From a virus: DNA of 60,919 bases. The notes under the pieces are model-generated. The model did not search any database and was not told where the DNA came from. It was given only the letters and a program-made list of their open reading frames with translations. This document shows positions 5,035 to 56,279 of the stretch, piece after piece. Both the position numbers and the translations under genes were made by a program. The DNA is taken from IMG/VR virus record IMGVR_UViG_3300030104_006626, positions 17,946-78,864 of that record, one strand, 5' to 3'. The number at the start of each line of letters is the position of its first letter. The stretch's first letter is position 1.

Positions 5035-5058
5035 GGAATTTTTTGTTATATTAGATAC
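5035..5058 (+). promoter_or_regulatory. Early/middle-type promoter-like motif directly before primase
   Basis: Contains GGAATTTTTTGTTATATTA; the TATATTA box (5047-5053) ends five bases before the ATG at 5059. Nearly the same arrangement precedes the polymerase gene at 53203 and uvsE at 57148. If the box is a -10 element, transcription would start at or beside the ATG, giving a leaderless mRNA; no Shine-Dalgarno is present. Confidence 0.55.
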
Positions 5059-5967
5059 ATGAAGAATAGACAACTTATTAACTTATTGGAAAGTGTATTA
5101 GGTACTGCAAAAAATAGCGGTAATGAATCTACATTCCACTGTCCTTATTGTAATCACCATAAAAAGAAATTGGTGATAAATACAATAACGGAAAAATGGC
5201 ACTGCTGGGTTTGCGGTGTTAAAGGTATAGGTGTCGAAAGAATATTTAAGAAACTTGGCGCATATGATAAAATACCAAAATTAAAAAGTATATCTAAAAT
5301 AAAGCTGAATATAAAAAAGGAAGAAAAAAGTACTCATGTATCTTTACCTATTGAGTTTATACCTCTTGTTAACGGGTCACCTTCAAGTCCAGAATTTAGA
5401 AATGCAGCGAGGTATATTAAAAGTAGAGGACTTACAAAAATAGACGTTTTGAGATATAATATAGGCTATTGTGAGTCCGGACCATATTCAGGTATGGTTA
5501 TTATACCTAGTTATGACGAAGAAGGTGTGCTAAATTATTTTGTAGGTAGGTCATATTACAATACAGATTTTAAGCATAAAAACCCTAAAGTGTCAAAGGA
5601 TGTTATAGGCCTTGAACTTTTAGTAAATTGGAATAAATCAATAAACATATGCGAAGGAGTGTTTGATGCTATAACAATAGGTGAAAATTCCATTCCTATA
5701 TTCGGTAAGTTCTTACCTAAAAAGCTAAAAGCAAAAATAAAAGAAAAGAAAGTTAAAAAAGTAAATATAATTTTAGATAACGATGCAAGAAAAGAAGCCA
5801 TAGAATTATGTGAATATTTAATGGCTGAAGATATAGATGTTAGAATGGTAGATATACCAGAAGATTCTGACCCTAATGAAATGGGTAGAGAAAAAATAAA
5901 AAATTTAATTGAAAACACACAGTCGTTGGATTTTAGAAAAATAGTGGAGATGAAGTTTGGACTTTAA
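5059..5967 (+). CDS. 61: DNA primase (DnaG-type, T4 gp61 equivalent)
   Basis: A 302-residue primase that would make RNA primers for lagging-strand synthesis. The N-terminus holds a zinc ribbon with C28-x2-C31 and C49-x2-C52 (HCPYC and HCWVC). The TOPRIM catalytic region follows: E199 in ICEGVFDA, the metal-binding ILDNDA at about 238-243 and EDSDPNEMG at about 268-276. Length is a little below T4 gp61 (342). No helicase domain is fused. The stop overlaps the next gene by 11 bases, so primase and the gp47-gp46 fusion are translationally coupled. The start lies directly behind an early-type promoter motif without a ribosome-binding site. Confidence 0.9.
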   Translation: MKNRQLINLLESVLGTAKNSGNESTFHCPYCNHHKKKLVINTITEKWHCWVCGVKGIGVERIFKKLGAYDKIPKLKSISKIKLNIKKEEKSTHVSLPIEFIPLVNGSPSSPEFRNAARYIKSRGLTKIDVLRYNIGYCESGPYSGMVIIPSYDEEGVLNYFVGRSYYNTDFKHKNPKVSKDVIGLELLVNWNKSINICEGVFDAITIGENSIPIFGKFLPKKLKAKIKEKKVKKVNIILDNDARKEAIELCEYLMAEDIDVRMVDIPEDSDPNEMGREKIKNLIENTQSLDFRKIVEMKFGL

Positions 5968-28517: not shown

Positions 28518-29159
28518 ATGGCAAAATCATTACTAATAGATTATTCATCGTTTGAGATAACTCCTCAGATGATAGTTGAGTCTGAAAAAGCAAATAACGG
28601 TAGAGTTATTGTTAGTGGAGTATTGCAAAGAGCAGAAGCTAAAAACCAAAATGGTAGAGTTTATCCAAAAGAAACTTTAATGCGTGAAGCTAAAAAATAT
28701 GCTGAAATACAAATTGCAGAAAACAGAGCACTTGGTGAATTAGACCATCCAGAATCTTCGGTTGTAAATTTACAAAATGTTTCTCATAATATAAAAAAGA
28801 TTTGGTGGAAAGGAAATGACCTATGTGGTACTGTTGAGGTACTATCAACACCATCAGGTAATATATTAAAAGAATTATTAAAGGCTGGCGTAAAACTAGG
28901 AATTAGTTCAAGAGGTATGGGTTCTGTAGAAGAAATAAGAGAAGGTGACGGTGAAGGTTCTTTAGAAGTTCAACCAGATTTTGAATTGGTTTGCTGGGAT
29001 TTTGTAAGCAACCCTTCAACTCACGGTGCTTTTATGGCTCCTGTAAATGAGTCAGTAGGTTCTATTAAAGTAGATAAATATGAAAAACTAAACAACATAA
29101 TAAATGAGATGCTATGCGAATTAACTTGCAAGTGCTCTTTACCAAATAGGAGAAAATAA
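28518..29159 (+). CDS. 21: Prohead core protease
   Basis: A 213-residue serine protease of the T4 gp21 type (212 in T4), which matures the prohead by cutting scaffold, capsid and internal proteins after (L/I)-x-E. The fold starts with a RVIVSGVLQRAEAKNQNGRVYP strand-turn; the catalytic His is H77 in LGELDHPES and the Ser lies in GISSRGMGS (129-136). GAGG precedes the ATG. It follows the small head protein by one base and precedes two candidate internal proteins. Confidence 0.93.
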   Translation: MAKSLLIDYSSFEITPQMIVESEKANNGRVIVSGVLQRAEAKNQNGRVYPKETLMREAKKYAEIQIAENRALGELDHPESSVVNLQNVSHNIKKIWWKGNDLCGTVEVLSTPSGNILKELLKAGVKLGISSRGMGSVEEIREGDGEGSLEVQPDFELVCWDFVSNPSTHGAFMAPVNESVGSIKVDKYEKLNNIINEMLCELTCKCSLPNRRK

Positions 29160-31338: not shown

Positions 31339-31385
31339 TAAAAAATAACAAAAATTAAAAAAGTCCGGTATATATTTTTATATGT

Positions 31386-31410
31386 CGGATTTTTTGTTTA
31401 TATTAGATAT
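31386..31410 (+). promoter_or_regulatory. Early/middle-type promoter-like motif before the bS21 gene
   Basis: CGGATTTTTTGTTTATATTA is nearly the primase motif at 5035 (both preceded by TATAT and CGGA). The TATATTA box is 31399-31405. By analogy with primase and polymerase, translation would begin about 31411. Confidence 0.55.
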
Positions 31411-31794
31411 AAATTAAGTTTAACTAAAAATAATACAAATCAAAAGCACAGAAATCACTCTTCTACAAATCAGAGAGGTGACAAACCAAGAAAACAATTT
31501 AGAAAGAAATTAGGAAGACATGAATTTTTCCTAGAAGGAAATCCATCAGGTGTTAAAGTACCAGATGCTAGTTCAGGTACATTAGAGCGAGCATTAAAAT
31601 ATCTTAAGCGTCAAATGAAAGATGAAGATGTAATAGGACAATATCGTTCTAGAAAAGAATACATAAAGCCTTCTCAAAGAAAACGAGTACAGAAAAACGA
31701 GGCTATAAGAAAAAACAAATACGAGCTTAAAAAACAAGCTATGATGGAAAAGAACTATATATGGACAGCTATGGTCAAAGATAAGGCTCAGTAG
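31411..31794 (+). CDS. rpsU: Ribosomal protein bS21 homologue; start codon not identifiable
   Basis: The frame is open from 31342 to TAG 31792-31794 and encodes a clear bS21 core: LERALKYLKRQMKDEDVIGQ, then YRSRKEYIKPSQRKR and a basic helical tail, matching the family pattern ALxxxKR...R-x-R-x-x-Y-x-KPS-x-x-R. No ATG, GTG or TTG occurs before the ATG at 31615, which would delete the first helix. I place the start at 31411 only because leaderless genes with the same promoter begin there, but the codon is AAA. A 45-residue basic extension precedes the core. bS21 acts on the 30S subunit near the anti-Shine-Dalgarno. A non-standard start, a sequence error or decay are all possible. Confidence 0.75.
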   Translation, partial: KLSLTKNNTNQKHRNHSSTNQRGDKPRKQFRKKLGRHEFFLEGNPSGVKVPDASSGTLERALKYLKRQMKDEDVIGQYRSRKEYIKPSQRKRVQKNEAIRKNKYELKKQAMMEKNYIWTAMVKDKAQ

Positions 31795-31996: not shown

Positions 31997-32947
31997 ATGT
32001 CAAAAGACTTATTAAAAGAAGCAATCGCTGATGCAAAGGCTGTTCGTTCAACTGCTATTGCAAACGCAAAACTTGCTCTTGAAGAAGCTTTCACTCCAAA
32101 ACTACAATCTATGTTATCTCAAAAAATCGCTGAAGAGATGGACGAAGAGTTAGAAGAAGAAGAGGATTTAGAAACTACGGATACGTCAATCGAAGATGAC
32201 GAAGCTGAAGTTGCTGATACTACTGCTGACGCTGCTGACACTGGTTCTGCGGATGATGAAACAGAAGTAACTGGTGAAGACATGCCGGCTGATGAATCAT
32301 ACGAAGAAGGCGAAGAGGTAGAAGAAGAAATGTACGAAGGAGAGGAAGAAGTTGAAGAAGATTTAGAATTAGAATCTATCATTAAAGAATTAGAAGCTGA
32401 CGAAGTAGAAGAGACTGAAGAAGTTGAAGAAACTGAGGAAGTGGAAGAAGCTATGGAAGAAACTGAGGATGAATTATCTGAAACAGAAGAAGAGAAAGTT
32501 GAAGAAGAAGAGATGGATTTAGAAGAAATCATCAAATCTTTACAAGAAGATGAAGAAATGGAAGAAGAAGAGGAAGAGGTAACTGAAGATAAAGAAGCGG
32601 AACTAGAAGAAGCTTACAAAGTTATCAAATTCTTAAAAGGTAAAATCAATGAGGTTAACTTGTTAAACTCTAAATTACTTTATTCTAACAAATTATTCAG
32701 AAGCAACAATTTGAACGAATCGCAAAAGGTGAAAGTTATCGAAACTTTCGATAGAGCAAATTCAGTAAGAGAAGTTAAATTAGTTTATTCTACTTTAGCA
32801 GAATCTTTAACTGCATATACTCCAAAGAAAAGAGTTAACGAAAACTTTGCATCTAGCACAACGAAATCTACGAAGCCATCGAAAGATGTAATCGTCGAAG
32901 CTAATACATTTGCAACAAGAATGCAAAGATTAGCGGGGTTAAAATAA
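31997..32947 (+). CDS. 22: Prohead core scaffold protein
   Basis: A 316-residue gp22-type scaffold (T4: 269). It starts with a helix MSKDLLKEAIADAKAVRSTA, has an extremely acidic centre (about residues 45-205, mostly Glu/Asp) and a conserved helical C-terminal part (about 210-275) with EVNLLNSKLLYSNKLFRSNN and a KVKVIETFDRANSVREVKLV-type segment. It would fill the prohead and be digested by gp21; many L/I-x-E sites are visible. It lies directly before the major capsid gene. AAGGAG precedes the ATG, and a long hairpin-containing leader lies upstream. Confidence 0.9.
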   Translation: MSKDLLKEAIADAKAVRSTAIANAKLALEEAFTPKLQSMLSQKIAEEMDEELEEEEDLETTDTSIEDDEAEVADTTADAADTGSADDETEVTGEDMPADESYEEGEEVEEEMYEGEEEVEEDLELESIIKELEADEVEETEEVEETEEVEEAMEETEDELSETEEEKVEEEEMDLEEIIKSLQEDEEMEEEEEEVTEDKEAELEEAYKVIKFLKGKINEVNLLNSKLLYSNKLFRSNNLNESQKVKVIETFDRANSVREVKLVYSTLAESLTAYTPKKRVNENFASSTTKSTKPSKDVIVEANTFATRMQRLAGLK

Positions 32948-32973: not shown

Positions 32974-34536
32974 ATGTCACAAATTAACAATTTATTACAA
33001 GATTCTCAAGCTCAATTCAAAGCTCAGAGAAACGAAACAAAAGGTCTTGTAACTAAATGGGAAAGCACAGGTCTTTTAGAAGGTATTTCTGCAGAGTATG
33101 ACAAACATAACACTGCAATCCTTTTAGAAAATCAAGCTAAGCAACTTATCTCAGAGGCTAATACTACTAGTACTACTTCTGCAGAAGAGTGGAATGGTGT
33201 TGCACTTCCATTAGTTAGACGTATCTTTGGCGAATTATCTGCAAAGGAATTCGTTTCGGTTCAGCCTATGAACTTACCATCTGGTTTAGTTTTCTGGTTA
33301 GACTTCAAATATGGCCAAAATGGCTCATTCTTAGGAAAAGGAAGACACGCAACAGGTGATTCACTTTTCGGTAACGCAACTAACAAAGGTAAAGCTAGTT
33401 TAACAAAAGGTCTTTATGACAATTTTGATGATGGTGCTACTGGTGGAGCTGTTGGATATTCTTTAGGAAAAGTTGCTTCAGCTTCAGCTGTAATTGAATC
33501 TGATGGTACTGTACACATTATTGATGCTGATGGTATTGATATGTCAATCTGGAATTCATTCTATGCTATTTCAGGTTCATCTCACAAAATTGCTACAGCG
33601 TCTAATGTACTTAACAACGGTGCTGGTTCTAACGTAACAACTGCAGTTGCTCTTGGATTTGATAACTCAACTCCAATTTCTGCAACAGGTGTTATGGATG
33701 TATACTACTACAAAAACACTACTGATGCTACTAAGAGAGGTGATTTTGAAGATAGAGATATTCCAGAAATTGGAGCTACGGCTACTGGTTCAAATCTTGA
33801 AATTCCAGAAATCGAAGTTCAATTATCTCAAGAGGCTTTAGTTGCTAAGACTAGAAAGCTTAAAGTTAAATGGTCACCAGAATTTGCTCAAGACTTGAAT
33901 GCATATCATTCAATTGATGCAGAAGCTGAATTGACTTCAATGTTATCTGAATACATTACAATGGAAATCGACTTAGAAATCCTTGCAATGCTTCACTCTG
34001 CTGCTTCAGGTTCAGGATTTACTTCTGACTTCACAGCACAAACACCAGCTGGTGGTGAATTATTCGGCGACGCATTTGCTACTTTAGGTGTAACTATGCA
34101 AGCAATGTCTAATGCTATACATCAATCAACTATGAGAGGTGGTGCTAACTTTGCAGTAATGTCACCAGCAATCGCTACATACGTTGAATCAATCGCTGGC
34201 TACAATGCAAACACTGATGGTACTGAAGGAAACTTCGCAATGGGTGTTCAAGCTATTGGTACGATGAAAAACAGATGGACAATCTACAAGAATCCATACT
34301 GGACAGGTAAAGAAATTTTAATGGGATACAGAGGAAATCAATTCCTTGAAACTGGTGCTGTATTTGCTCCATATATTCCACTTATTATGACTCCACTTGT
34401 TTATGACCCAACAAACTTTACTCCACGTAAAGGTGTGATGACAAGATACGCTAAGAAAGTTGTAAGAAACGACTACTACGGTGTTATCTCTGTTGTTGAT
34501 ACAAACTGGGCTACAATTGGTGCTTTACCTTCATAA
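32974..34536 (+). CDS. 23: Major capsid protein
   Basis: A 520-residue gp23-type HK97-fold capsid protein (T4: 521). The N-terminal 61 residues are the scaffold-like delta domain; LISE61-A62 is a good prohead-protease site, close to E65-A66 in T4. The core contains VRRIFGELSAKEFVSVQPMN and FWLDFKYG, and the C-terminus TRYAKKVVRNDYYGVI. AGGAG precedes the ATG. A strong terminator follows. Codon use is slightly richer in C-ending codons than its neighbours, as expected for a highly expressed gene. Confidence 0.96.
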   Translation: MSQINNLLQDSQAQFKAQRNETKGLVTKWESTGLLEGISAEYDKHNTAILLENQAKQLISEANTTSTTSAEEWNGVALPLVRRIFGELSAKEFVSVQPMNLPSGLVFWLDFKYGQNGSFLGKGRHATGDSLFGNATNKGKASLTKGLYDNFDDGATGGAVGYSLGKVASASAVIESDGTVHIIDADGIDMSIWNSFYAISGSSHKIATASNVLNNGAGSNVTTAVALGFDNSTPISATGVMDVYYYKNTTDATKRGDFEDRDIPEIGATATGSNLEIPEIEVQLSQEALVAKTRKLKVKWSPEFAQDLNAYHSIDAEAELTSMLSEYITMEIDLEILAMLHSAASGSGFTSDFTAQTPAGGELFGDAFATLGVTMQAMSNAIHQSTMRGGANFAVMSPAIATYVESIAGYNANTDGTEGNFAMGVQAIGTMKNRWTIYKNPYWTGKEILMGYRGNQFLETGAVFAPYIPLIMTPLVYDPTNFTPRKGVMTRYAKKVVRNDYYGVISVVDTNWATIGALPS

Positions 34537-35330: not shown

Positions 35331-35370
35331 GGTAGACTTAGCGAATATTGTAATATAAGGAGTGTTAAAG

Positions 35371-35832
35371 ATGGCAAACTTAAAGGTAACTATTAAAGAA
35401 GATATAGAATTAAACGGCTCACAGCAAGGTGGCGTTTTTGCAAAAACATATACAGATATAACAGATATATATAAAAGAATATTTACTGCACCATCAAACA
35501 CAGAAGTAAGCTTATATACTACTCACGCATCACAAACAGAAGGTAGTGTATTAGATAAAGACTCTATAAAGTATGTAAGAGTAACGAATTTATCTACTCA
35601 ATTTACATCATCTGTACAAATAACTGCTGCTGACGATGGTGTAGCTTGGGTGCAAATTGCACCTGGAGCTAGTTTTATGTTATCAAATCATTCAGAAGGT
35701 ATTGATACATCAACATCTGCAGATGTAACACAGCCTAATATAACTTGGAGCAATATAGCATCTATGAGTGCAGCAGGCGTTTCTGGCTCAATGCAGCTAG
35801 AATTATTTGCAGCATCTACAACTAACGGATAA
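35371..35832 (+). CDS. Virion-associated protein, unknown role
   Basis: A 153-residue protein. The ATG at 35371 (MANLKVTIKEDIELNG) is preferred because AAGGAG ends nine bases upstream; a GTG at 35362 would place the start inside that site. The sequence is beta-rich and Thr/Ser-rich, with a centre SIKYVRVTNLSTQFTSSVQI and GVAWVQIAPGASFML like a jelly-roll head-decoration or neck accessory protein. It directly precedes gp13. Role unproven. Confidence 0.6.
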   Translation: MANLKVTIKEDIELNGSQQGGVFAKTYTDITDIYKRIFTAPSNTEVSLYTTHASQTEGSVLDKDSIKYVRVTNLSTQFTSSVQITAADDGVAWVQIAPGASFMLSNHSEGIDTSTSADVTQPNITWSNIASMSAAGVSGSMQLELFAASTTNG

Positions 35833-54239: not shown

Positions 54240-56279
54240 GTGAATATAAACCATTTATTAAAAGATTGGGCTTGGAGAGTTAACGATGGTATGCCTGACC
54301 CGAAAAATAGAAATCATCTTGAATTACTTGAGGCAACTCTTAGAGCACATAAGTATAATGATGAGTTTATATCTGCATATATTGATAGTATAAAAAATCC
54401 AAATAAAGATATCAAAAAATTTCAAGAATTCTGTGTTGAGGTTGGAAAAATTATTAGTGACGAAAGTATACTAGCAGAATCTTCTGTATGGGAAAAACCT
54501 GTAGGAACAGAACAGTTGGCTGGAAAACAAACATTCAATATATGGAAGGATGCACCAAAAGGACCATATACAGTTGTTGCAAAAACAGCAGATGCTATTG
54601 ATGTCGACTTATCACCAGACGAATCAAATCCTAAAATTGCATATATTAGTGCCGGAGGTAAAACATATAAGATAAGTGGTGCAAAAACAAAGATGTCAAA
54701 GCTTTTTAAGAATGCTACATCAAAATCTTCACCATTTAAGATATCTTGGAAAGAAAATGAACTAGAATCGGCTGCTTGCACAGGATTATATTTTGACCCT
54801 ACATCTTACTACTCAAAAATAATGACACCGAATGCTCAACAATCAGATGTTGAAGCTGCAATCAGTGCTTTCAAGTCCGCTTTAGGTAAATCAAATGAAT
54901 ATGCAGGAGCTTCTGGACTAAGTGGTATAGAAGGTATACCTGATGTATTACGTGCTTTAGAATTAGCAAACGGCGTACACGCATTTGCAGCTGCACATGG
55001 TTGTAAAGGTTGGAATTTTATACACTCAAGTATAGGTAATTATTATAAAGCTGGATATCAAAATAAAAATCTAGATACTTCAGGCTTTAAGGACAATACA
55101 GCAGACACTGTTATAGTTAAAGGAGACCCTCAAGCTCTTATTACAGCAATGAAAAGTGAAAAAGTAGAATTCGATAGTTCAGGAAAATGTAAAACAGAAT
55201 CAGGTATTGAATTTTTTCAAATAAGTAATAAACTTAAAAAAGGTGGAGCTCAACTAGGCAGAATTCAATCAGCATTTGCGGATATGTATGGATTAAAGGA
55301 ACCTATGGATACGTGGAAGGTTTATCTACAAAAAGAAATTACAGAGCATGGCGATAAAGGATTTTTATTAAATGAAGGTCTTGCACAGTACTTTAAGCAA
55401 GGGTTAAAATATATTAAGGATAAGTTTACAACCTTGTTAGATAAGGCAAAAAACAAGATTGCTAAATTCTCATCCTCAGTTATGAAAAAACTTACGTTTA
55501 GTATGAAGAAACCTTCACCATCACTTGAATCATTTATGAAGAAGGAATTTAATAGAGCGCCTATGGTGTTAAAGGAAGCTAAAAAACCTAAATATAGTTA
55601 TGGCGCGTATGCTGAGATGGTTGCAAAAGCTGCCATGAATAATGACAAGTCATATTCTAATAACTTACTAAATAAGGCTCAGCAACAATGGAGTATTTTA
55701 GAAAAACTATTAAACATTCCAGATGACGGAATATATCCTACAAAAATATCATCAGGTCCTGAAAATTATACAATAAAAGATATAAAAGCTGGTGCAAATT
55801 ATATAATAAAGCTTATGATTAACTTCACTGCTTATGAACACTTAACAAAAATGCTAGCAAGCTCTAAAGGTGAAATAAAAAATGTCACAAAAGTATTAGA
55901 AGAATTCGTAGAATTGGAAAAGGAAATGTATTTTGGAAAAACAGACTTGCCAATGTTCAAAGTATACGGAGCAGATATGAAGTCGACAGCTTGGGAATAT
56001 CTAAAGAGTGGAAAAGAATTCAGAGAAGATAGACTTAAAGCTATGAATATGACCGATGCGGTCAAGGATGGAAAATCTGTACCTGGTGTAATTGTAGAAT
56101 CAAGCGTCCAAAAAGGTAAAGGTTATACTGCTGTAAAAATGTGGATTCTGCATTCTATAACAGAAAAAGGAACAAAGTATACACAAGTAGATTTAAGGTC
56201 GGGAAGTAGAGATACGTTTTCATTCTCAGTATCAGGAGGTAGTATAATGGATGGCTCAAAAGTATTAGGAAAGATATAA
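54240..56279 (+). CDS. Large protein of unknown function (possible nuclease-like region)
   Basis: A 679-residue protein starting at GTG 54240 (MNINHLLKDWAWRVNDGMPD), with GGAG six bases upstream. The WxxRVxxGMPDPKN opening looks like a small domain shared by large marine-phage proteins. Residues about 275-350 contain DNTADTVIVKG and, after a spacer, EFFQISNKLKKGGAQLGR, loosely like the D...(E/Q)xK pattern of PD-(D/E)XK nucleases. Residues 385-440 are a basic helix and 450-679 are mixed alpha/beta. There is no membrane segment. It has a late-type motif, so it may be a virion-packaged protein. The function is not established. Confidence 0.6.
   Translation: MNINHLLKDWAWRVNDGMPDPKNRNHLELLEATLRAHKYNDEFISAYIDSIKNPNKDIKKFQEFCVEVGKIISDESILAESSVWEKPVGTEQLAGKQTFNIWKDAPKGPYTVVAKTADAIDVDLSPDESNPKIAYISAGGKTYKISGAKTKMSKLFKNATSKSSPFKISWKENELESAACTGLYFDPTSYYSKIMTPNAQQSDVEAAISAFKSALGKSNEYAGASGLSGIEGIPDVLRALELANGVHAFAAAHGCKGWNFIHSSIGNYYKAGYQNKNLDTSGFKDNTADTVIVKGDPQALITAMKSEKVEFDSSGKCKTESGIEFFQISNKLKKGGAQLGRIQSAFADMYGLKEPMDTWKVYLQKEITEHGDKGFLLNEGLAQYFKQGLKYIKDKFTTLLDKAKNKIAKFSSSVMKKLTFSMKKPSPSLESFMKKEFNRAPMVLKEAKKPKYSYGAYAEMVAKAAMNNDKSYSNNLLNKAQQQWSILEKLLNIPDDGIYPTKISSGPENYTIKDIKAGANYIIKLMINFTAYEHLTKMLASSKGEIKNVTKVLEEFVELEKEMYFGKTDLPMFKVYGADMKSTAWEYLKSGKEFREDRLKAMNMTDAVKDGKSVPGVIVESSVQKGKGYTAVKMWILHSITEKGTKYTQVDLRSGSRDTFSFSVSGGSIMDGSKVLGKI

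Follow-up and report, generated by a model that had tools for sequence, protein, structure and literature searches.

The window analysed here is a stretch of 60,919 nucleotides, part of a 115,606-base virus record in which one bS21 match was found; no second intact bS21 was found in the 115.6 kb of the record, which may be incomplete. The bS21 frame is located between the prohead protease and the major capsid gene, the usual place for bS21 of T4-like phages, and two uncharacterised proteins are also among its neighbours. Because the neighbouring genes encode a prohead protease, a protein in the scaffold position and a gp23-type capsid protein, the region was assigned to the head module of a T4-like phage. 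The features of the locus are the following:

28518-29159, prohead protease (PF03420)
31342-31794, + strand, bS21 frame, an open reading frame without ATG, GTG or TTG before 31615
31358-31395, + strand, terminator-like hairpin behind the upstream gene, followed by a T run (RNA fold -15.9 kcal/mol, z -6.5)
31399-31405, + strand, TATATTA promoter-like box, which holds ATT 31402
31406-31436, + strand, bS21 leader without Shine-Dalgarno sequence, GATATAAATTAAGTTTAACTAAAAATAATAC; the same in relatives L001-L003, with close variants in L006, L008, L010 and L013
31436-31441, + strand, deletion junction; relatives are longer by 16 nt at this point, the start codon among them; AAAT at 31437-31440 forms a microhomology
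31441-31794, + strand, bS21 coding remnant (PF01165) from CAA 31441 to the stop codon TAG 31792-31794, start and first codons gone; 97-99% amino acid identity to L001-L005
31818-31846, + strand, terminator-like hairpin and T run after bS21 (RNA fold -14.3 kcal/mol, z -4.2)
31997-32947, acidic protein in the scaffold position, identified by position only
32974-34536, gp23-type major capsid protein (PF07068)

A preliminary description of this DNA had stated that the frame 31342-31794 is open, that it lacks ATG, GTG and TTG before 31615, and that it encodes a convincing bS21. These statements were confirmed. Codon-by-codon listing of the frame showed that the first of these codons is ATG 31615, within the core, and that the in-frame near-cognate codons 5' of it are ATA 31345, ATT 31354, ATA 31372, ATT 31402, AAG 31444, AAG 31504 and AAG 31606. 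The product matched Pfam PF01165 over frame residues 47-93 with an E value of 2.4e-10 and a score of 40.4 bits, which is above the curated cut-off of 27 bits. It was also matched by PHROG 21469 ('ribosomal protein S21'), and a profile built from the bS21 relatives matched the solved bS21 chains 9i5v and 7jil. When annotated phage records were searched by tblastn, the sole match was RpsU of Microcystis phage Mel-JY01 with 39% identity, thus this bS21 subgroup has no close annotated relative among those records.

Genes for bS21 in the head modules of T4-like phages form a known class, of which the window gene is a member. As in the phages described by Chen et al. 2022 (PMC9723584) and Mizuno et al. 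2019 (PMC6375957), it has the PF01165 core and is separated from the protease and the major capsid gene by only a few genes. It differs from those genes in having a long basic N-terminal extension of about 45 amino acids and a C-terminal tail, and in that the window copy has lost its start codon to the 16-nt deletion and is not intact. Chen et al. (PMC9723584) describe bS21 as encoded on the reverse strand of its conserved region, whereas in the window it is on the same strand as its neighbours. A further likeness is to the pelagimyophages (PMC7029224; HTVC008M), a T4-like myovirus group whose listed core proteins include S21, although the bS21 of HTVC008M, with 67 amino acids (PMC6375957), is unlike that of the window.

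The preliminary description had also assigned to this unit its own promoter-like motif and terminator, and this view is supported by the TATATTA box and by the fold z-scores of the two hairpins, which show that both, with their T runs, are real. The right arm of the 31358-31395 hairpin, TGTCGGA (31383-31389), is at the same time part of a recurring promoter-like element. The strict form of the element (TGTCGG...TATATTA) occurs four times in the 115.6 kb record versus none in 50 shuffles, and the relaxed form nine times on the coding strand versus about 0.9 expected for both strands. In window-based numbering, TGTCGGA followed after about 10 nt by TATATTA was seen at 5047, 31399, 53191, 57135, 62100, 71356, 74767 and 78712, the last four sites being in the parent record beyond the window end. 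It had been noted that elsewhere the ATG follows TATATTA by five bases; this is true of the genes starting at 5059 and 53203, which have no Shine-Dalgarno sequence, and suggests that the messages from these two genes are leaderless.

Relatives of the window gene were used to locate its start. Direct bS21 homologues were found in 15 IMG/VR loci, and an in-frame ATG precedes the core in all 15. A capsid-protein search yielded 72 related capsid loci, 50 of which contain bS21 as judged by the bS21 profile, in nearly all cases about 1-1.8 kb upstream of the capsid gene; again, all 50 genes have an in-frame ATG before the core. Of the 31 distinct bS21 start regions of relatives, 19 have an exact TATATTA a short way before the ATG. 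The homologous bS21 genes start approximately 33 nt past the box, at the site of the window's gap, and their ATG maps to about window position 31439. In the more distant L008, L010 and L013 the N-termini are shorter, but the spacing between box and ATG is similar. From the five-base spacing the start had been expected at AAA 31411. This proved wrong: an ATG aligned at 31411 was rejected, as the relatives start about 28 nt further on. Three related capsid loci (L048, L049 and L050) lack bS21 at the usual place; L007 (3300030207), a bS21 contig of the same sample series as L050, has a different gene context, and bS21 may have moved in the L050/L007 lineage.

The closest five IMG/VR relatives (L001-L005, 97-99% amino acid identity) all have an ATG where the window has the gap. 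L001 and L002 (99% amino acid identity) are the same as the window over 31350-31436 and for at least 85 nt past the gap, where they read ACAAATGGCTTATAACAGAAATCAAAAG and the window reads ACAAATCAAAAG (in a longer comparison, AATACAAATGGCTTATAACAGAAATCAAAAG versus AATACAAATCAAAAG). The start is intact and the same in L003-L005, and closely similar in L006 and L007. Among bacterial and archaeal genome contigs, neither the intact nor the deleted form was found. DNA comparison and alignment with the relatives showed that the missing 16 nt hold the ATG and the codons for MAYNR. The segment is bordered on both sides by AAAT, a microhomology of 4 nt. Of 16-nt deletions placed at random in the window, 2.3% had microhomology of at least this length, and its presence at the gap ends is typical of slippage.

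The deletion also accounts for the open frame upstream. Because 16 is not a multiple of three, the loss joined the leader and the terminator of the window to the bS21 frame, with AAT 31438 re-formed in that frame at the junction. In the relatives, the frame of the codons equivalent to ATT 31402 and AAA 31411 does not continue into bS21, since it is closed by a TAA inside the segment absent from the window; the long open frame from 31342 is therefore a by-product of the deletion. Judged from the aligned sequences, the N-terminus 'open from 31342' and the in-frame position of ATT 31402 are side effects of the same event.

Taken together, the gene is an ordinary phage bS21, broken or mis-assembled at its start in one record. 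The start is almost certainly missing through the 16-nt deletion, present either as a recent loss allele in the assembly or as a consensus or library artefact. Transcription of bS21 in the relatives probably starts from a promoter-like element of the gene's own that shares sequence with the terminator hairpin of the gene before it. The resulting mRNA would have about 25 nt of leader, no Shine-Dalgarno sequence and a start at the ATG. A 16-nt deletion with AAAT at its ends would then have removed the ATG and the MAYNR codons in one assembled record, leaving the box, the leader and the terminators in place without a start codon. Such a copy would yield either no bS21 at all or, at most, a fragment with a truncated core, initiated at ATG 31615.

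Is the deletion a real allele? The chance that the sampled phage population truly carries a bS21 allele that has lost its function, with bS21 either dispensable or supplied by co-infecting phages or the host, appears slightly better than even. The 4-nt microhomology is a classic footprint of slippage, and a 4-nt repeat is far below any assembly k-mer, so that a short-read assembler would hardly make this join without junction reads; for this reason we lean slightly towards a real allele. In the comparison of syntenic genes with four relatives, bS21 alone lacked its N-terminus against all four while its body was intact, and a comparable break was seen in no other gene. Other discordances concerned one relative each, or cut contig ends, differing gene content and overlapping spurious frames, and the other non-triplet indels were small and mostly in compensating groups or at gene boundaries. 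A record-wide fault of sequence quality thus found no support. The capsid loci L048-L050, without bS21 at that place, indicate that the gene can be lost or moved. On the other hand, the deletion junction was found in no other IMG/VR contig; the intact form is present in five, the same five that hold the sequence just downstream. Purifying selection, published for virus-encoded ribosomal proteins (PMC6375957), also argues against a real loss, as does a body without sign of decay.

That the gap reflects an error of sequencing, library or assembly in one record, the phage's bS21 being normal, is quite possible, if somewhat short of an even chance. The junction is unique to this record, the ATG is universal in the homologues, and the promoter-like box, the leader, the terminators and the body are pristine. 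Relative to L001, the body carries one replacement and three silent codon changes, and 117 of 118 residues equal those of the nearest relative. With a body so nearly identical to that of L001 and with intact flanks, the event is either very recent or a consensus error. However, a clean 16-nt gap with microhomology resembles a real deletion more than a typical base-calling error, and the parts of the window compared with relatives show no similar faults. That a natural phage lineage has dropped its own bS21 by deletion of the start codon, keeping promoter and body, we regard as unlikely. Should the deletion be real, the window would hold a naturally occurring null allele with which the need for phage bS21 could be probed.

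Translation of the window gene from ATT 31402 or AAG 31444, perhaps with self-regulation, is very unlikely, close to negligible: the frame is open and ATT is a near-cognate, but ATT 31402 lies within the TATATTA box, upstream of the point at which transcription from this box would start, its counterpart is out of frame with bS21 in all close relatives, which start at ATG, AAG is a very weak initiator codon with no Shine-Dalgarno sequence before AAG 31444, and nothing in the homologues corresponds to the upstream residues VYIRYKLSLTKNNT. Both codons were rejected as starts on the basis of conservation and position. The model for such a start is infC of Escherichia coli, which also encodes a translation-related protein, starts at AUU and is self-regulated, and by analogy an AUU start could be proposed for bS21; a non-AUG start is, however, not conserved among the bS21 homologues, all of which have ATG. 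The preliminary description had offered a non-standard start, or else an assembly error or decaying gene. The second of these is favoured, since comparison with the relatives reveals a 16-nt deletion of an otherwise universal ATG, whereas the first finds no support, with an ATT that is inside the box and in frame only through the deletion. A false lead is thereby removed, and there is no evidence for a ribosomal protein gene that lacks a start codon or starts at AUU.

Shine-Dalgarno sequences are distributed differently between bS21 and the capsid gene. They are absent from 27 of the 31 distinct bS21 start regions (L029, L043-L113), which are usually A-rich, whereas in 27 of 30 cases a Shine-Dalgarno sequence precedes the major capsid gene, which lies about 1-1.8 kb downstream. 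The rpsU gene of a flavobacterial host shows the opposite, an extended Shine-Dalgarno sequence (PMC9976891). Incorporation into 30S subunits has been shown for the bS21 of HTVC008M (PMC6375957). For the family, it has been proposed that late in infection the phage protein takes the place of host bS21 and gives preference to phage messages (PMC9723584, PMC6375957); the same may hold for the present bS21. The start without Shine-Dalgarno sequence may be a regulatory feature linked to the effect of bS21 on Shine-Dalgarno recognition, and the contrast with the capsid gene bears on how phages use bS21.

Elsewhere in the window, two genes at 54240-56279 and 35362-35832 are markedly different, in length or in sequence, from those of a close relative (679 versus 397 amino acids in G002; 33% identity in G003). 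The surrounding sequence is otherwise 88-96% identical to the relatives, a pattern that points to probable local gene replacement.
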